Below, piece after piece: positions 5,291 to 28,932 of a DNA stretch of 64,000 nucleotides. This DNA comes from Dyella sp. ASV24 (GTDB taxonomy: Bacteria > Pseudomonadota > Gammaproteobacteria > Xanthomonadales > Rhodanobacteraceae). Position numbers and translations under genes: made by a program. Each line of letters begins with the position of its first letter. The stretch's first letter is position 1. A model generated the notes under the pieces. It was not told the DNA's origin and searched no databases. It was given only the letters and a program-made list of their open reading frames with translations. The DNA lies in the NCBI RefSeq assembly GCF_016428905.1, contig NZ_JAELTQ010000005.1, positions 1-64,000 on the forward strand, written 5' to 3'.

Positions 5291-6331
5291 ATGATGGGGA
5301 ACTGGTGGAGAGTCTTCGGACGTGAACGCGCGGCAGAACCAGCGGCGGCACGCCCGGCTGCACCCAATCCAGAACTAACTGTCGAGACGCTGTCGCCTCA
5401 CGCCACCGTTCCGTGCGACGAGATCGCCGAACGCTTCTTCCGTTTTATCTTGAACCAGCCGGTCAGCGCCGGCGACACGCCCAACAAGGTGCGCGAGCAG
5501 GCGATTTTGCAGCGCCTGCGGGATCAGTGCGAAAGCGGTCGTTTCGACATACGCAGCCTGCCGCGCATGCCCACCGTGCTGCCGCAGCTGATGCGTGCGA
5601 TGAAGAACGACAAGCTCAGCGGCGCACAACTGGCGGACCTGATCAAGCGCGACCCCGTGCTGGTGGGCGAAGTCATGCGCGTCACCGGCAGCGTCACCTA
5701 CCGCACTGCGCACCCCATCGGCAGCCTGCAGCACGCCGTGGTGCTGCTGGGCCAGATCGGCCTGCGCCACGTGGTGACGTCGTACGTGATGAAGCCCATC
5801 CTGATGGCCAGCGCCGGCACCAGTGGACAGATCGTCGGCCAGCGCCTGTGGGATCACGCCGAGCGTTGCGCCCATGCAGCGGTATACCTCAGCAAGGGGC
5901 AGTGCGACGCCTTCGAGGCCTACCTGCTGGCGCTGGTCGGCTATAGCGGCCTGGGCGCTGTGGCCCGCCTGCTGGACAGAGAACTGCAGAACACCGAGCT
6001 GCCGGCCAGCTCCGCCGCCTTTATCGATGATTGCGTCCAGCTCGCCGCCCAGCTCACCGTGCAGGCCGGGCAGCACTGGGAGCTTCCGCCTGCCGTGCAG
6101 GAAGCACTGGTAGAGCACGCGCAACACGGCAGCGCCGCCTTGATGCTGCCGATGAGCCGCGTACTGCACGTGGCTCAACGACTGGCGATGTACCAACTGC
6201 TGTCCGAGCAAGGCCTGCTCGATCGCGACTCCGGCGTCGGTGACGATCCCATCGCCACCTTTCCGCCGCAACTGGTCGCGCGCTGCCAGCAAGACCTGCG
6301 GCAGAGCTTCGACACAGCGATACCGCCGTAA
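5291..6331 (+). CDS. HDOD domain-containing protein
   Basis: Cytosolic protein of 346 aa. The HDOD domain starts near LPRMPTVLPQLMRAMKNDKL and includes DLIKRDPVLVGEVMRV, with the sequence SLQHAVVLLGQIGLRHVVTS further on. HDOD proteins are degenerate HD-domain relatives that act as signalling or regulatory adaptors and usually lack phosphodiesterase residues. No output domain is attached. The start is uncertain: ATG 5291 has GAGGGGG 11 bases upstream, and GTG 5264 is also in frame. It ends one base before the convergent luciferase-like gene. Confidence 0.85.
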   Translation: MMGNWWRVFGRERAAEPAAARPAAPNPELTVETLSPHATVPCDEIAERFFRFILNQPVSAGDTPNKVREQAILQRLRDQCESGRFDIRSLPRMPTVLPQLMRAMKNDKLSGAQLADLIKRDPVLVGEVMRVTGSVTYRTAHPIGSLQHAVVLLGQIGLRHVVTSYVMKPILMASAGTSGQIVGQRLWDHAERCAHAAVYLSKGQCDAFEAYLLALVGYSGLGAVARLLDRELQNTELPASSAAFIDDCVQLAAQLTVQAGQHWELPPAVQEALVEHAQHGSAALMLPMSRVLHVAQRLAMYQLLSEQGLLDRDSGVGDDPIATFPPQLVARCQQDLRQSFDTAIPP

Positions 6332-6332
6332 C

Positions 6333-7331
6333 TTAACGACTGGCGTCGAGTCGCTTCTTCACCTCGGCCACCAGGGCAAACGAGCGGCAACGCGCCTCGT
6401 GATCGAACACGTTAGCGGTCACCATCAACTCATCGGGACGATGACGCGCCACGAAGGCCTCGATGCCTTCCTTCACCGTGTCGGGAGCGCCAATCACCGC
6501 ACAGGCAAGCGCACGCTCCACACCGAACTTCTCCGTGGGCGTCCAATACGTCTCGATGTCGTCGATCGGCGGCGGGATCAGCCCCGGGCGTCCACGACGC
6601 AGGTTGATGAAACTCTGCTGCTGCGTGGTGAACAAACGCTTTGCCTCGACGTCACTCTCTGCCGCGACGATGTTGACGCCCAGCATTGCATACGGCGACT
6701 GCAGACGTGCAGAGGGACGGAAATCGCGGCGATACAGTGCCAACGCCTCGTCCATCGCGTCTGGTGCAAAGTGCGACGCGAAAGCGAACGGCAAACCCAT
6801 CGCTGCGGAAAGCCGTGCACTGAACAGGCTGGAGCCCAGCAACCAAACGGGCACCTCGATGCCCGCGCCAGGCACGGCGCGCACCGGCTGCTCCGGCGTA
6901 GCGGGTTCAAAGTAAGCGAGCAGCTCAGCCACATCCTGCGGGAAAGCATCAGCACTGTCGAAGTAGCGTCGCAACGCACGCGCGGTGGGTTGGTCGGTAC
7001 CCGGCGCACGCCCCAGCCCCAGATCAATGCGCCCCGGATAGAGCGAAGCCAGCGTACCGAACTGCTCAGCCACCTGCAGCGGCGCGTGGTTGGGCAGCAT
7101 GATGCCGCCAGCGCCCACGCGGATGGTTGAGGTTCCACCAGCCACGTGGCCGATCAATACAGCGGTTGCAGCGCTGGCGATACCCGGCATGTTGTGGTGC
7201 TCAGCCAGCCAATAGCGCGTATAGCCCAGCTGCTCGGCGCGACGCGCCAGATCCAGCGTGTTGGCAAAGGCCTGGGTGGTGTTGCTGCCCTCAGTAACGG
7301 GCGCCAGATCGAGTACGGAGAAAGGAATCAT
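6333..7331 (-). CDS. LLM-class flavin-dependent oxidoreductase
   Basis: Bacterial luciferase-like monooxygenase of 332 aa, expected to use reduced FMN. The N-terminus ([11 protein letters not shown]) and the [19 protein letters not shown] stretch are typical of the subgroup annotated MsnO8-like, and [17 protein letters not shown] and [10 protein letters not shown] follow. The start at 7331 has GAGGAAG upstream. The substrate cannot be told from sequence. It is convergent with the HDOD gene and divergent from the EamA transporter, so the 136-base gap at 7332-7467 holds both promoters. Confidence 0.92.
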
Positions 7332-7467
7332 GGGGCTTCCTCGACGGGGAAGCACACCACGTGGGGGCGGTGCGGGAAAAAGCCAGCCCTCCGCCAGGGA
7401 GGGCATACAATCTCACCGTCTGCACTTTTTGCGTGCACGCTGTCCGACACCTCGCCCCAGGAAGCCC

Positions 7468-8526
7468 ATGACCCGGATGATGCTCTCCCGCCCCGTTGTC
7501 GCTGCACTTCTGGCGGCGGCGTTATTCGGCGCGAGTACACCCTTTGCGAAGCAACTGGTCAGCCAGACATCCCCCTTCCTGCTGGCCGGCCTGCTCTACC
7601 TCGGCAGCGGCATAGGGTTGAACTTGATCCGCATCGTTCGCGACCGCTCGCTGCAACTGCCGACCATGCCCGCGAGTGAATGGTGGTGGTGGCTCGCCGC
7701 GGTGATCTTCGGCGGCGTACTCGGTCCACTACTGCTTATGTTCGGACTGGTCCAAACCGCCGCTTCCACCGCCTCCATGTTGCTTAATCTCGAAGCTGTG
7801 CTCACCGCGCTGCTGGCTTGGGTCGTGTTCAAGGAAAACGCGGATCGACGCATCGTCGCCGGCATGCTGCTGATCGTCGCCGGCGGTGTGTTGCTTTCCT
7901 GGTCAAGCGCGGGCCACGGCGAAGGCTCGTGGGTTGGCCCTGCAGCGATTGGCGGCGCGTGCTTGTGCTGGGCCATCGACAACAACCTCACGCGCAAGGT
8001 CTCCGCGCAGGATGCGTTGTTCCTTGCCGGTGGCAAGGGTGCTGTGGCCGGCGTCATCAATACCGCACTCGGGTTGGCTATCGGCGCCGCGTGGCCATCG
8101 TGGACACAAGTGGCGCCCGCCATGCTGATTGGCCTGCTCGGCTACGGCATCAGCCTCGTTCTGTTTGTGCTCGCTTTGCGCGGCCTGGGCACGGCGCGCA
8201 CCGGCGCCTACTTCTCCACCGCACCGTTTATCGGTGCCGCCATCGCCATCCTTTGCTTTGGCGAGCACGCGTCCACCATGTTCTGGCTGGCTGCTGCACT
8301 GATGAGTGCAGGCGTCTGGCTGCATTTGACCGAACGACACGAACACGAGCACACGCATGACGCGATGTTCCACGCGCATCGCCATATCCATGATGAGCAC
8401 CACCAGCACGAACACGACTTCGACTGGGATGGCACGGAACCGCACACGCATCCGCACCAGCACACGCCCATCACGCACACACACCCGCACTACCCGGATA
8501 TCCATCATCGTCACGGCCATGCGTAA
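7468..8526 (+). CDS. EamA/DMT-family transporter with histidine-rich C-terminal tail
   Basis: Inner-membrane protein of 352 aa with about ten transmembrane helices in two EamA repeats (FGASTPFAKQLVSQTSPFLL; LLNLEAVLTALLAW with FKE; second repeat ending ALMSAGVWLHLTERH). The last 65 or so residues are hydrophilic and carry about 23 histidines in HxH and HH patterns, a likely metal-binding tail. DMT proteins export metabolites; the tail suggests control by or handling of a divalent metal, which is inference. ATG 7468 follows AGGAAG. A bidirectional terminator lies downstream. Confidence 0.9.
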   Translation: MTRMMLSRPVVAALLAAALFGASTPFAKQLVSQTSPFLLAGLLYLGSGIGLNLIRIVRDRSLQLPTMPASEWWWWLAAVIFGGVLGPLLLMFGLVQTAASTASMLLNLEAVLTALLAWVVFKENADRRIVAGMLLIVAGGVLLSWSSAGHGEGSWVGPAAIGGACLCWAIDNNLTRKVSAQDALFLAGGKGAVAGVINTALGLAIGAAWPSWTQVAPAMLIGLLGYGISLVLFVLALRGLGTARTGAYFSTAPFIGAAIAILCFGEHASTMFWLAAALMSAGVWLHLTERHEHEHTHDAMFHAHRHIHDEHHQHEHDFDWDGTEPHTHPHQHTPITHTHPHYPDIHHRHGHA

Positions 8527-8561
8527 CGCGATGAGCGTAGTCCGCATCCACTCTCACCCAT

Positions 8562-8593
8562 AAAAAAACGGCGGCCCGTAAAGGCCGCCGTTT
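8562..8593. terminator. Bidirectional rho-independent terminator
   Basis: An 11-bp stem (8566-8576 with 8583-8593) and a CGTAAA loop lie between two convergent genes. A7 on the left gives a good U-tract for the minus-strand beta-propeller gene; only TTT follows on the plus strand. Confidence 0.85.
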
Positions 8594-8615
8594 CGTGTGC
8601 TGCACCGCTATTCGA

Positions 8616-9791
8616 TCAGCGCATGATGCCGGTGTGACCCAGCGAGAAGCGGCCCGGCTGCGGCCACACCGCGAGGCCGTGCGGCTCCTGACCCACCTTG
8701 ATGATGCGCACCTGACCGCTGGTGGTGTCGAATGCGTACACCACGTCGTCGAAGCGGCCGGAGAGCCACAGCGTCTTGCCGTCCGCGCTCACGTTGCCCA
8801 TATCCGGGCTGCCGCCGCCGGGGATACCCCAGTTGGCGACCACTTTCTGCGTAGCGAAATCGACTACCGACACGCTGCCCTTGCCGCCGCGCGGACCATG
8901 CACCTTATTGGAACCACGGTTGGCGACATACAGCTTGGTACCGTCACGGCTCGGGTACAGACCATGCGTGCCCACGCCAGTCTTGATGAAACCCACCTGC
9001 TTGAAGCTGTAGGGATCAATCAGGTACAGGCCGTCGGCCATCATGTCTGCGACGTAGAACGTCTTGCCATCCGGGGACGAGCGGATGTCCTGCGGCATAC
9101 CCTTCTTGGACAGGTCGAGGTAACCCACCACCTTGCGGTTCACCATGTCGATCTTCACCAGCTTGCCGGTGAATTCGCAGGTGAAGATGGCGAAGCTGCC
9201 GTCGATGGAGAACTCGGCGTGGTTAATGCCCTTGCACTCCGGCGCCTGCAGGCTGCTATGCAGCGCCTGGGTGTGCGCATCGCGGAAGTCCAGGCGCGCG
9301 AACGCCTCAGCCACCACGATGGATTCCTTGCCGTCCGGCGTGAAGTACATGTTGTACGGGTCGTCCACCGGCACCGCCGTGCCCGGCTTGCCGGTACTCG
9401 GATCGATCGGCGTCAGGCTGCCGGTCTTTTTACGCTCGGCGTTGTTGGTCACCCACAGGGTGCGCAGGTCCCACGACGGCACGACGTGCTGCGGACTCTC
9501 GCCCACCTTGAACTTGTCCACGACCTTGTACGTTTTCGGGTCGATCACGTAGACGTCGTTGGAACGCAGGTTCGGCACGTAGATGCGTTCCAGATCGTTC
9601 TTCACTGCCGGGCTCAGGTGGCCGAGCCCGGACTCGCTGTACATGTCAGCGGAATTCACCACCGGCGGCATGCCGGGCACGGTGGTCACGGACGAAGCCG
9701 CCAGGGCGGTGCCGCCCAGACACGCCGCGGCAAGCGCGAACGGTGCGAGTCGGAACAGACGGGAGGAACGCAGGGATTTAGCGATGGCCAT
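8616..9791 (-). CDS. Exported YVTN/NHL-type beta-propeller protein
   Basis: Secreted protein of 391 aa. A signal peptide (residues 1 to about 31, ending GTALA) precedes repeated blades with motifs such as RSNDVYVIDPKTYKVVDKFK, SPDGKTFYVADMMADGLYLI, GTKLYVANRG and SADGKTLWLSGRFDDVVYAF, the pattern of YVTN propellers. A binding or scaffold role is likely but its ligand is unknown. It lies 38 bases downstream of the creatininase-like gene on the same strand with no terminator between, so the two exported proteins are probably co-expressed. Confidence 0.88.
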   Translation of the reverse strand: MAIAKSLRSSRLFRLAPFALAAACLGGTALAASSVTTVPGMPPVVNSADMYSESGLGHLSPAVKNDLERIYVPNLRSNDVYVIDPKTYKVVDKFKVGESPQHVVPSWDLRTLWVTNNAERKKTGSLTPIDPSTGKPGTAVPVDDPYNMYFTPDGKESIVVAEAFARLDFRDAHTQALHSSLQAPECKGINHAEFSIDGSFAIFTCEFTGKLVKIDMVNRKVVGYLDLSKKGMPQDIRSSPDGKTFYVADMMADGLYLIDPYSFKQVGFIKTGVGTHGLYPSRDGTKLYVANRGSNKVHGPRGGKGSVSVVDFATQKVVANWGIPGGGSPDMGNVSADGKTLWLSGRFDDVVYAFDTTSGQVRIIKVGQEPHGLAVWPQPGRFSLGHTGIMR

Positions 9792-24833: not shown

Positions 24834-26609
24834 TCAGGCCCGGATCATGCCCGGGAGCTGGTTGTCCGCGATCACACGGTTTCGCCCGGTGCGCTTGGCG
24901 CGGTAGAGCGCGGCGTCCGCTTCCCTGCGCAATAACTGAAGCTCGTAACCTGAGCTATCGGTGGACGCCAGTCCGATGCTGGCGGAGAAGGTGACAAGAC
25001 GGCCGTCACCCTCCACCGGCGTCGCCTCGATCGCCGTGCGGATGCGATCGGCAATGGCCACGCCCTGCTCGCGCGTGCAATCGGGCAGCAGGATGCCGAA
25101 CTCCTCGCCACCCAGGCGACCGAAGAGGTCTGTCGGGCGAAGCTGCCGTTGGCAGAGCGTCACGGTGTGCTTGAGCACGATGTCGCCAACGGCATGGCCG
25201 TGCGTATCGTTGATCAGCTTGAAGTGATCCAGGTCGATGGAGATCAGGCAGGCAGCACCCGATTTCCTCTCTGTCGCGCGCAACACGCGCTCGGCCTCAC
25301 TCACAAAGTGCTGGTGGTTGAAGATGCCGGTCAGGCTGTCGCGGAAGGAGAGCATCTTGAAGCGCAGCTGCGAGCGCTTGATGCGCAACAGCCATGCCGC
25401 GATGGAGATGACCAGGACCAGCAGCAATGCAATGTAAAGCCGACTCGTTTCGACAGCCTTGGTGTCCAAGGCCTGTTGCAGGCGCAGGATATTGTTCTGC
25501 TTGCTCAGCCCCTCAGCCTCCAGCCGTTGCGCGAGCAAATGCTGCTGCACGGTGGCATAGGCCAACGACCTGGCGCTGATATCGTCGATGTAGCCCTTGT
25601 CCTGGGCGACAAAGTTCTCGTAATAGGCCAGCGAAGCCGCTGGGTTACCCCGGCGCTTCTCCACCTTATAGAGCACCTCGTAGGCAGTCCGGACCCATTC
25701 GCTGACTTCGTCCTGGCCACTCATGGCCAATGCGGCGAGCGCCGCCTTGCGGGCATTGGCCTCGTCGCCCAGCTTTTCATACGCCTGGGCAAGCTGTACT
25801 TGCACGGCACGCATGTGTGAGTAGTAGCGGTTGGCGGCGACGCTGGGAGCCAGGTGGTTCAGCAGAGCGAGCGCTTTCTCTGGCCGGTCTTCGGTGAGGT
25901 AAAGGTCGCTCTTGATCAACATCATGGTGTTGACGAATACCGGTTGTCCGGCCGCCGAACAGGCATCGATCGCTTCCTGCAGCTTCGGGCTGGACGAGGT
26001 GAGCCGATCCGTCTTGTTGAGCGCACTCACTTCCATGGACAGCGGGTTGCACAGGCTTTCACCAGGAGGCACCGAGTCCTCCATCATGCGCGCGTACTTG
26101 ATCGCCAGATCGGTCTGCCCCGCGTACACCATCAACTGCGAGAGATTGGACAGCACAATAAAGCGCGCCAGCTTGTCCTTTACCGTCGGCAAGTCGGACG
26201 CCAGCTGGTTGGCCAGCGTAAACGCTTCCTCGTAATGGTTGCTCAGCCCGAGGTTGTGCATGAGCAAGGCCATGGACTTGGCCTTCAGCGTCGCGTCACC
26301 GGAATGATCGATGACGTCTTGCAGCATCATGTTGGCCTTGGTCGCATCCCCCTCGAAGGCCGTCTGCCACCCATCGAGATAGCGCAGGTACCACTTCTGC
26401 ACAGGCGTCAGCTGGGACGCCTCTTCGTGGATCTGCGCGAGCATGGCGACGAAACGCGGGTGGTCGATGGTGCGTACCCGCTCCGTCTGCTCGAGGAACT
26501 TGCCGGGATCGGTGACCGTCCCGGCGGCGTGAATCACGCCCGGCAGTACGCAGAAGGCCAGGCTCGCGAGTGCGAGCCGTGGCCAAGCCTTGCATCGCCG
26601 GAGCGACAT
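24834..26609 (-). CDS. TPR-containing membrane diguanylate cyclase (GGDEF)
   Basis: 591-aa protein. It has a signal sequence or N-terminal helix (1-28), then TPR-like helical repeats (about 30-380) in the periplasm, one transmembrane helix (about 390-410) and a GGDEF domain. The active site is GGEEF near residue 500, so c-di-GMP synthesis is likely. An inhibitory I-site RPTD lies exactly five residues upstream. The start lies 8 bases after the stop of the small precursor-like gene 26618-26929, so the two are almost certainly co-transcribed. Confidence 0.92.
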   Translation of the reverse strand: MSLRRCKAWPRLALASLAFCVLPGVIHAAGTVTDPGKFLEQTERVRTIDHPRFVAMLAQIHEEASQLTPVQKWYLRYLDGWQTAFEGDATKANMMLQDVIDHSGDATLKAKSMALLMHNLGLSNHYEEAFTLANQLASDLPTVKDKLARFIVLSNLSQLMVYAGQTDLAIKYARMMEDSVPPGESLCNPLSMEVSALNKTDRLTSSSPKLQEAIDACSAAGQPVFVNTMMLIKSDLYLTEDRPEKALALLNHLAPSVAANRYYSHMRAVQVQLAQAYEKLGDEANARKAALAALAMSGQDEVSEWVRTAYEVLYKVEKRRGNPAASLAYYENFVAQDKGYIDDISARSLAYATVQQHLLAQRLEAEGLSKQNNILRLQQALDTKAVETSRLYIALLLVLVISIAAWLLRIKRSQLRFKMLSFRDSLTGIFNHQHFVSEAERVLRATERKSGAACLISIDLDHFKLINDTHGHAVGDIVLKHTVTLCQRQLRPTDLFGRLGGEEFGILLPDCTREQGVAIADRIRTAIEATPVEGDGRLVTFSASIGLASTDSSGYELQLLRREADAALYRAKRTGRNRVIADNQLPGMIRA

Positions 26610-26617
26610 CGCGATAC

Positions 26618-26929
26618 CTAGGCGGCCTGCGCGGGCAGGTTGTGCACGGACTCGGGATCCTTGTTCGGCTCCCCTTCTTCGTCCGGCACCGGAACCGGCA
26701 CAGGAATCGGCTCCTCGCGTTGTGGGTAGGTCTGAGAGCTTTGGGTCACGTGCATGACGTGCTCGCCAAACTCCCGCCCCAACTGCGCGCTGTCACCCGA
26801 TGCCACCGCAGCCACCAGCGCTTCGGAGGCATCAGCCGCCGCCAGCAGGGTGGTGAGTTCATCAGACGACGCATGACGCAGCGTTGCATCCTGGCCAATG
26901 GCCTCAAGCCAATCCATCGTATCGGTCAT
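26618..26929 (-). CDS. Candidate split-borosin precursor peptide
   Basis: 103-aa protein. Residues 1-52 look like a small helical domain, WLEAIGQDATLRH then SEALVAAVASGDSAQLG. As I recall it, the SonA precursor of Shewanella has GQDA and a GD-containing second helix at the same places. Residues 55-70 (GEHVMHVTQSSQTYPQ) and an alternating Pro/Val stretch at 74-82 are core candidates, followed by an acidic tail. It sits next to an OphMA-like methyltransferase and has its own promoter (27003-27030). AGAGGGGG lies about 10 bases before the start. Assignment is inference from context and resemblance. Confidence 0.72.
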   Translation of the reverse strand: MTDTMDWLEAIGQDATLRHASSDELTTLLAAADASEALVAAVASGDSAQLGREFGEHVMHVTQSSQTYPQREEPIPVPVPVPDEEGEPNKDPESVHNLPAQAA

Positions 26930-27002
26930 ATGTCAGAGCCCCCTCTGTTTTGTTGTGATGATCTTGCATTGATTGCTGCGTCCGGCACGCCACGGTCGCG
27001 CC

Positions 27003-27030
27003 GGTATAGCTTGATGACACACGATGACAA
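27003..27030 (-). promoter_or_regulatory. Predicted sigma70 promoter of the precursor gene
   Basis: Reading on the minus strand, TTGTCA (27025-27030) and TATACC (27003-27008) are separated by 16 bases. Transcription would begin near 26996, giving a leader of about 65 bases before the precursor ATG at 26929. This would let the precursor be made in excess of the methyltransferase. Confidence 0.5.
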
Positions 27031-27104
27031 GCGTCATCGGCGGGCCATCATCGTGCCATGCGCCAACGGGCCTCTCCCCCGTCACGCGTGGTCACTGTAC
27101 CGCG

Positions 27105-27944
27105 TTACGCAGGCTCCACGGCGTTTTCCGCCGCTTCCAGTTCTGCCAGCCGCGCCTGTATCGCCAGGTTTGGCTTCATGGCCTTCGCCGGGGGCAACAC
27201 CACGGTTTCCTCGGCGGACAATTCGATATGCGGCAGGTCGCGCAGGGCGATGCGGCGGATACGCGGCTGCTGGATGGGCAGCGTCGCCGCGCGGTAGATG
27301 ATCATTTGATGGTCGAGCGGATAATCCGCGCTCAGCAAGTCGACGAACACCTGCCGATACGCAGCCCCCGTCGCCTTGAAACGCGCCAGCGACTGGTCAC
27401 CCACGTGCCCGACCTGCCATAGCACCAGATAGCCGGTGGGATCGATGCGACGCTCAAACAGCAGCAACTGGCTGGCTTCGAAGTGCTGGCAACCGAAACG
27501 GCCCGGGTCGATGCCCAGATCCGCATAGAGGCAGTCTTCGGCAGAAATGCCCGGCTCCATGTGCGCGTGATAGCCCTCGGCACGCGCCGCCTCGATGGCC
27601 TTGTGCGGCGACCAGGCAAAGATGCCAGGGTGCCCGTAGAACACACCGCAGACACGCTTGCCGGCGCGCACTTCGGTCATCATCAGGTCGACCCATTCGC
27701 GATAGGTCGTGAGTCGCGACTTCCCTTCCCGGTAATAGGGCTGCAGGCTGCGCACATCGGGATGCATGCGTTGCAGCCAGGCCTCGACGATGCCGTCGGA
27801 CACACCCGCGAACACCACGTCCGATTGGGTGATATGGCTGCGCGCCAGTGGCGTGAGGTGGGATCCGAGCGTCATGCCCAGGCCGACACAGGCCAAGCTA
27901 CCGCGGCGCGCGTCTGTCGATGCCGGTATCGAAGGGTTTTCCAT
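27105..27944 (-). CDS. Borosin-type peptide alpha-N-methyltransferase (TP-methylase fold)
   Basis: 279-aa SAM-dependent enzyme of the tetrapyrrole-methylase fold. It lacks features of CobA or RsmI but tracks the omphalotin enzyme OphMA closely: GKSRLTTY, VFYGHPGIF, EGYHAHMEPGISAEDCLYAD and LVLWQVGHVGD. The four catalytic positions known for OphMA (Tyr66, Arg72, Tyr76, Tyr98) correspond to Tyr71, Arg77, Tyr81 and Tyr103. OphMA methylates backbone amides of its own C-terminus; this protein ends after the catalytic domain, so it should act in trans on a separate precursor, likely the gene 175 bases downstream. The start has only a weak ribosome-binding site. Confidence 0.88.
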   Translation of the reverse strand: MENPSIPASTDARRGSLACVGLGMTLGSHLTPLARSHITQSDVVFAGVSDGIVEAWLQRMHPDVRSLQPYYREGKSRLTTYREWVDLMMTEVRAGKRVCGVFYGHPGIFAWSPHKAIEAARAEGYHAHMEPGISAEDCLYADLGIDPGRFGCQHFEASQLLLFERRIDPTGYLVLWQVGHVGDQSLARFKATGAAYRQVFVDLLSADYPLDHQMIIYRAATLPIQQPRIRRIALRDLPHIELSAEETVVLPPAKAMKPNLAIQARLAELEAAENAVEPA

Positions 27945-28317: not shown

Positions 28318-28932
28318 ATGAAAAAGCATCTCCTGTGTTCGCTGGCCGCCACGATCCTGGCCGCTGGCATGACCCTGGCAACACCCGCACTCGCCGCCAT
28401 CAGCCAGGGCGCCACCGCGCCAGCCTTCACCACCCAGGCCAGCCACGACGGTAAGAGCTTCACCCTTTCGCTCGCGGACGCGCTTAAGAAGGGTCCGGTC
28501 ATCGTCTACTTCTTCCCCTCCGCCTATACCGGTGGCTGCGACATCGAAGCCCACGCCTTTGCCACGGAAGCCGCGAAGTTCGCCGCAGCGGGCGCCACCA
28601 TCATCGGTGTCTCCGCCGACAGCATCGATAGGCTCAACACGTTCTCGGCTGACCCGAGTTACTGCGCCGGCAAGTTCCCGGTGGCATCCGACCCGCAAGG
28701 CAAGATCGCCGCCCAGTACGACGTGAAGATGTCCGCGGCGGAGCCTGATGCGAAGGATGTGCGGGGCCAGGCCATTGAGCACGGCTTCATTTCGCGCGTG
28801 ACCTTCGTGATCGGTCGCGACGGCAAAGTGGCCGCGGTGTTCTCCTCCGAGGCCGATCACCTGCATCCGCAGGAGCATGTGAGCAAGTCGCTCGCCATCG
28901 TGCAGCAGTTGCAGGCTGCCAAGGCGCCCTGA
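28318..28932 (+). CDS. Exported peroxiredoxin (AhpC/TSA family)
   Basis: 204-aa thiol peroxidase with a signal peptide (ends PALA), so it protects the periplasm against peroxides. The peroxidatic motif is PSAYTGGC with Cys74; Cys116 in DPSYCAGKF could be the resolving cysteine. ISRVTFVIGRDGKVAAVF is the usual late strand pattern. It is divergent from the borosin methyltransferase. A hairpin follows the stop. Confidence 0.9.
   Translation: MKKHLLCSLAATILAAGMTLATPALAAISQGATAPAFTTQASHDGKSFTLSLADALKKGPVIVYFFPSAYTGGCDIEAHAFATEAAKFAAAGATIIGVSADSIDRLNTFSADPSYCAGKFPVASDPQGKIAAQYDVKMSAAEPDAKDVRGQAIEHGFISRVTFVIGRDGKVAAVFSSEADHLHPQEHVSKSLAIVQQLQAAKAP

Follow-up and report, generated by a model that had tools for sequence, protein, structure and literature searches.

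The window, the whole 64,000-nucleotide stretch of Dyella sp. ASV24 DNA that we analysed, carries on its reverse strand a unit of three genes in operon-like order, which encode a methyltransferase (MT), a small precursor protein and a membrane sensor with diguanylate cyclase (DGC) output (Table 1). A sequence-only reading of this DNA had described the locus as an MT and a separate precursor. Both of these open reading frames, of 279 and 103 residues, are present and keep their assignments, but the reading overlooked the third gene of the same unit, the DGC gene, which begins 8 bases past the precursor.

Table 1 Features of the three-gene unit, with the evidence for each assignment
Feature	Position in window	Strand	Evidence
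MT, predicted SonM-type borosin alpha-N-methyltransferase, 279 aa	27105..27944	-	phmmer match to SonM (E 2.7e-73), PF00590, invariant active-site residues, tree
Gap between MT and precursor, 175 bases	26930..27104	-	sequence
Predicted borosin precursor, 103 aa	26618..26929	-	profile match to SonA; relatives at MT loci
Precursor residues 1-55, putative borosin-binding domain (BBD, leader)	26765..26929	-	ungapped alignment with SonA; pN/pS 0.21
Precursor residues 58-69 (VMHVTQSSQTYP), proposed core	26723..26758	-	block conserved across 8 close relatives
Precursor residues 70-103, acidic proline-rich tail	26621..26722	-	D/E counts in DGC-adjacent precursors
TPR-type membrane sensor with GGDEF output (DGC), 591 aa	24834..26609	-	PF00990 (E 2.9e-40), weak TPR, hydrophobicity
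GGDEF domain, GGEEF motif with RxxD site five residues ahead	24876..25346	-	domain search; motifs from translation

The sequence of the MT–precursor gap has a GGGGG-type ribosome-binding site right ahead of the precursor ATG, and its folding is not unusual (z of -1.53). Promoter and terminator patterns occur at about the shuffled expectation. Rfam gave no family, and no cyclic-di-GMP riboswitch, in the window, and in ten relatives it gave tmRNA only. With Rfam empty in the window and the gap fold ordinary, we rejected a conserved RNA element or riboswitch. Phage origin was also rejected, as no PHROGs family was found at E 0.001. A divergent gene for an AhpC/TSA-type peroxiredoxin (window 28318-28932, forward strand) adjoins the MT gene; its relatives occur near 10 of 55 loci, placing it outside the unit.

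We searched the MT against the sequences of the PDB with phmmer. The closest match was SonM of Shewanella oneidensis (E of 2.7e-73), followed by OphMA (9e-50) and a precorrin methylase (0.007), with the fused fungal enzymes in the PDB matching at approximately 4e-50 to 1e-44. The OphMA-like segments quoted in the sequence-only reading are found in the translation, and the likeness to OphMA holds at the level of the family; the closest relative, however, is SonM (250 bits, compared to 173 bits for OphMA). Pfam recognises the protein as TP_methylase only (PF00590, E of 1.7e-19), and NCBIfam matches it to tetrapyrrole-methylase-type enzymes, all far below the cut-offs. The residues Y71, R77, Y81 and Y103, correctly picked out as catalytic from the sequence, do not vary among the 23 MTs aligned and correspond to Y58, R67, Y71 and Y93 of SonM, which were mutated in PMC8429565. 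The chain stops after the catalytic domain, as had been noted, and carries no substrate of its own, having neither a fused clasp nor a core. The MT shares 47% identity with the MT of locus L166, which is itself 93% identical to SonM; we take L166 for a putative Shewanella locus, without implying S. oneidensis itself.

Comparison with the tetrapyrrole-methylase relatives gave a consistent picture. CysG and RsmI from the same genome fit the MT profile poorly (E of 1.7e-8 and 0.15). We built an MT tree of 80 rows, 23 of which, from alignment A2, were labelled by hand. The window MT groups with Dyella MTs and SonM groups with L166 (100/95). The window MT lies with SonM and apart from its own CysG and RsmI, a split that is fully supported; the CysG and RsmI outgroup branches are very long, so that only this gross split is safe. 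The placement with CobA or RsmI that had been named as the case against a borosin enzyme was thus found neither by phmmer, nor by the MT profile, nor in the tree, and a corrin or 16S rRNA methylase (CobA/CysG, RsmI) was rejected, the closest match lying elsewhere by phmmer and in the tree and the NCBIfam matches staying far below cut-offs. We assign the 279-residue protein, from these comparisons, as a SonM-type borosin alpha-N-methyltransferase.

The precursor gave nothing significant in Pfam, and a single-sequence search of the PDB returned no significant match (best E of 0.53, to an unrelated protein). A profile of 52 precursor relatives searched against the PDB placed SonA as the top 7 of 17 matches (E of 2.9e-4 to 1.3e-3, the next being 0.19), with an ungapped alignment over residues 1–60. 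Residues 1–53 of SonA form the BBD (PMC8429565). Since the profile match spans this domain, the GQDA motif, which is common to both proteins and had been noted as SonA-like, was a correct hint. Compared pairwise, the precursor aligns weakly with a SonA-like one (27% over 45 residues, E of 7e-4 for that single comparison). Relatives of the precursor are found at 87 of 90 MT loci, duplicates included. The 103-residue protein, which has no signal peptide, is on this evidence assigned as a borosin precursor with a leader homologous to that of SonA. The MT clade, the active site and the SonA-like leader make a split borosin, as originally proposed, the best-supported reading, and the locus very probably makes a backbone-methylated peptide.

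Across an alignment of eight close relatives, the pN/pS ratio rises from 0.21 for the leader through 0.52 for the core region to 0.75 for the tail (raw, pooled values from non-independent pairs). A QSSQT-x-P block is conserved between the variable linker and the tail, with QSSQT in seven of the eight relatives and QASQT in one. The short, DGC-less precursor of L079 ends with the same core, QSSQTFP followed by three residues; thus, the core block occurs with or without the tail. The alignment suggests that the methylated positions may lie near residues 58–69.

Among relatives of the window locus, the acidic tail accompanies a neighbouring DGC gene. We counted acidic residues among 107 profile matches, after excluding a 34-residue fragment from L059 and dropping 12 duplicate loci, a script having set each precursor start at the start codon closest to the match. 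In this nonredundant set, all 72 DGC-adjacent precursors (gap of -13 to 31 bases) carry between 7 and 16 D/E past residue 55, with lengths of 88–117 residues, while 20 of the 22 other precursors have 5 or fewer, the exceptions being L044 (13) and L088 (7). The precursor nearest the DGC in L051 is 214 bases off and lacks an acidic tail, indicating that some DGCs of the set have no acid-tailed partner directly ahead; L176 has two acidic-tailed precursors, and no DGC-type gene was found alongside. SonA-type loci place short precursors, without an acidic tail, directly before the DGC. The acidic-tail rule is limited to relatives of the window locus and fails at SonA-type loci. The tail described earlier as flexible is present, but in these loci it is mostly an acidic extension specific to DGC-adjacent precursors, which the sequence-only reading had not seen. 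By separating core from tail, the rule shows where to look for methylation.

Several loci carry more than one precursor. L034 (Luteibacter sp. dw_328, 6885-9144) has one MT followed by six short tandem precursors and an acid-tailed seventh directly before the DGC. Extra precursors with a repeated core were observed in L043, L051 and L055, that of L055 (6839-7141) apparently made up of several hydrophobic blocks that resemble one another and finish in LMP or LMA. The L059 fragment (5783-5887), a precursor leader upstream of the MT, is probably a relic.

The sensor has hydrophobic stretches at residues 12–30 (signal) and 392–410 (membrane helix). Its order is a signal-like stretch, a TPR-like domain predicted to be periplasmic, one membrane helix and the GGDEF domain. 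The TPR signal is weak in the window sensor and strong in some related partners, and PDB relatives of the sensor domain were weak TPR-like or chance matches alone, at E of 0.02 and up. A hydrophobic stretch lies just ahead of the output domain in 48 of the 51 listed GGDEF or histidine kinase (HK) proteins. The Dyella sp. ASV24 genome has 26 GGDEF matches, two of which carry this sensor, both behind a precursor.

We then examined how the three genes are distributed. Named relatives, across 60 loci, belong to Dyella, Rhodanobacter, Luteibacter, Frateuria and others. The MT is present in all 20 genomes of the genus and, at E 1e-40, in 94 of 147 family genomes and 9 of 369 class genomes; with SonM as query at 1e-45, matches came from 69 of the 295 genomes in a single other order. 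The 20 genus genomes were searched separately for the MT, the precursor and the TPR part of the sensor, and the positions were then matched. A precursor of this family lies downstream on the same strand for 35 of 35 MTs, which makes the arrangement more than chance. If the two contig-end fragments in G016 represent a single gene, the 39 sensor matches amount to 38 genes. For 37 of these a precursor lies at under 400 bases upstream, frame-broken in one case, and for 31 an MT lies within 3.5 kb. Of the 44 genus precursors, seven have no sensor directly downstream, and 4 of the 35 MTs have no such sensor next door. In the 55 loci longer than 12 kb, every other ORF family (at least 150 residues) is confined to 8 loci or fewer, and neither a protease nor an exporter recurs among ORFs of this size; a protease or exporter was rejected as a member of the unit on these grounds. 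The surroundings vary between genomes, while the unit itself is constant.

Precursor and DGC also occur without a local MT. Six genomes (that of the window, G004, G007, G009, G013 and G019) have a precursor–DGC pair with no MT within the fetched stretch, and all six carry one or more MTs elsewhere. The precursor is frame-broken in G007 and intact in the other five; G005, a seventh genome, keeps the DGC behind a precursor remnant of approximately 25 residues. Thus, the precursor–DGC pair tends to survive the loss of its local MT, though not always. The related locus in G014 has kept an MT, a precursor without a long acidic tail and an acid-tailed precursor. For the five intact pairs together with G014, the leader is under purifying selection (pooled pN of 0.18 and pS of 0.52).

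In the other order, the analysis covered 40 regions, drawn from 28 of its 69 matching genomes. A GGDEF (29) or HK (8) ORF of more than 450 residues lies on the same strand within 2.5 kb for 37 of the 42 MTs, and two such ORFs occur elsewhere in these regions. A wider control is weak, since of the 251 other genes in these regions, 67 likewise have such an ORF within 2.5 kb, in most cases the partner of the MT. L193 counts among the 37 by way of a non-TPR GGDEF gene, its TPR-DGC being divergent. In L180 and L203, two of the five MTs that lack a GGDEF or HK partner are next to TPR proteins having no output domain. These are secreted or membrane proteins (L180, 7300-9480; L203, 4627-5787) that adjoin both the borosin MT and the precursor. 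A precursor was found for 29 of the 42 MTs. The pairing of a peptide gene with a single-pass sensor gene, which holds for 37 of 38 sensors in the genus, is weaker here: the precursor is directly upstream of 15 of 30 TPR-scored partners, although the profiles overlook certain precursors, such as one in L058. Extra TPR-DGCs with no detected precursor are present in some regions. In L166, the MT, a 71-residue precursor and a TPR-GGDEF gene follow end to end.

Further arrangements were found closer to the window. In three genomes from another genus of its family (L144–L146), TPR, GGDEF and MT are fused into an ORF of 821–867 residues, as judged by Pfam from one of the three fusions. A SonA-like precursor lies just upstream of the fusion gene and overlaps it in two of the three. 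Two further class genomes (L147, L148) have TPR-HK partners, one of them also with a TPR-GGDEF gene. DGC, HK and fusion loci cluster in the tree, requiring 11 changes compared to a shuffled mean of 22.8. Six distant MT loci (L149–L153, L155) have neither precursor nor sensor. Near distant MTs that have no recognised leader-type precursor, we observed related proteins of approximately 450 residues (L151, 7000-8346; L152, 5767-7173; similar ORFs in L153), and the two scanned matched no Pfam family at E 0.01.

The window locus resembles the type IV SonM/SonA system of S. oneidensis (PMC8429565) in having a separate MT (279 compared to 263 residues) with the same active-site residues and an adjacent precursor with a homologous leader, and the close SonM relative L166 also has a downstream GGDEF gene. 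Unlike SonA, which ends at about residue 71, the window precursor extends to 103 residues with an acidic proline-rich tail, and its core is a QSSQT block rather than a YLVI-like block, with 27% identity in the leader. It is also longer than the short precursors, of about 75 residues, of PMC8429565. Precursor length marks borosin subtypes, not the class, so that 103 residues argue only against a plain SonA-like subtype. The OphMA-type fungal borosins share the MT family (E of about 9e-50), but in OphMA the clasp and core are part of the single chain, whereas here they would lie on a separate protein.

Split borosins are already known, as both enzymes and complexes (PMC8429565; PMC11285071). PMC11395268 describes borosin types 0–XI, of which V–X trace to Imani 2022, Cho 2022 and Lee 2024, and a class 3 with BBD and core in one protein and a distinct MT, a build that the window locus fits. 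In that paper, the legend to Figure 1 lists a GGDEF-containing domain in one scheme of borosin types; some link with GGDEF is therefore in print, and the precursor–sensor pairing may be partly known. The main text of PMC8429565 contains "diguanylate" and "ggdef" 0 times; according to that paper, no split borosin pathway has so far been connected with its final natural product. The open-licence literature searched never joins borosin with diguanylate, which is weak evidence of novelty; borosin and histidine kinase co-occur there in one paper, in unrelated passages, and nothing joins SO1480 with S. oneidensis, again weak evidence.

We propose that the locus is a type-IV-like split borosin cassette with a dedicated sensor, in which the methylated peptide or precursor works with the TPR sensor, and we consider this quite probable. 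The MT would bind the precursor through its N-terminal BBD and carry out SAM-dependent methylation of backbone amides in a short core at approximately residues 58–69, a step that the homology of both proteins makes highly likely. The acidic tail may be a non-product extension, kept because the precursor works with the adjoining DGC gene. The core might then be freed by a housekeeping protease and cross the membrane by virtue of its N-methylated backbone, or the methylated precursor itself might act; more tentatively, the periplasmic TPR domain could read the peptide or precursor and set the cyclic-di-GMP output, or the HK output in relatives. A functional link between precursor and sensor is likely, while the peptide as the ligand of the sensor is possible and somewhat doubtful. 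That the gene set is tied to a membrane sensor at this locus, as well as at those of many relatives, hints at a possible signalling role for such peptides.

A broader form of this proposal, that gammaproteobacterial split borosins are ligands of their own receptors, is offered with caution. The receptors would be single-pass proteins with a periplasmic TPR domain and DGC or HK output, and N-methylation would make the peptides protease-resistant and membrane-permeable, so that no exporter would be needed. The acid-tailed precursor would be the form for the cyclase-linked receptor, with short-tailed precursors adding further peptides. The constant TPR input with changing output, the MT-less pairs and the lack of a recurring exporter or protease in the loci argue for such ligands; the decaying orphan pairs weaken the case, as do, in the other order, extra sensors for which no precursor was detected.

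The DGC could instead act upstream, sensing something else and controlling borosin making or methylation through cyclic-di-GMP, with an ordinary secreted natural product as the outcome. The DGC–MT fusions place the cyclase beside the enzyme rather than the peptide, and extra short-tailed precursors occur away from the DGC, in keeping with this. However, precursor and DGC remain paired without a local MT in six genomes, and the TPR input of the partner is constant while its output varies (GGDEF, HK or none), the reverse of what a cyclic-di-GMP-controlled enzyme needs. With no cyclic-di-GMP riboswitch in the window or the ten relatives (Rfam; tmRNA only), we find upstream control unlikely, although it retains some weight.

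The strict association of the acidic tail with DGC adjacency (72 of 72, nonredundant) could also mean that the precursor is never cut, and that a methylated BBD protein with an acidic tail works as a small subunit that regulates the sensor or its cyclase domain. A precursor without a signal peptide and the lack of a recurring protease or exporter nearby are consistent with this. It is nevertheless quite unlikely: the sensor TPR domain is predicted to be periplasmic and the precursor cytoplasmic, the DGC-adjacent precursor of SonA type is short and tail-less, and the repeated cores of L043, L051 and L055 fit the release of small peptides. It is very improbable that the sensor gene is a passenger in a mobile three-gene unit kept together by linkage only, since the constant unit in variable genomic surroundings that would suit such a passenger is accompanied by pairing in two orders with different outputs, by fusions, and by precursor–DGC pairs that persist without an MT. 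That the MT is another tetrapyrrole-methylase relative (CobA, RsmI or other) rather than a peptide N-methylase is scarcely credible, as the PF00590 match and the NCBIfam matches far below cut-offs stand against SonM at 2.7e-73 compared to a precorrin methylase at 0.007, the SonM active-site residues, the adjacent SonA-like precursor and the tree.

For the cassette with a dedicated sensor, the precursor–sensor pairing makes the purpose of split borosins testable, both in Dyella, a harmless soil bacterium, and in Shewanella. The DGC–MT fusions and the MT-less precursor–DGC pairs are natural experiments on which parts belong together. One MT-less pair, the second precursor and TPR-GGDEF pair of the Dyella sp. 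ASV24 genome, lies on contig C65 (L095 / L126), where the stop of the precursor and the start of the sensor are two bases apart.
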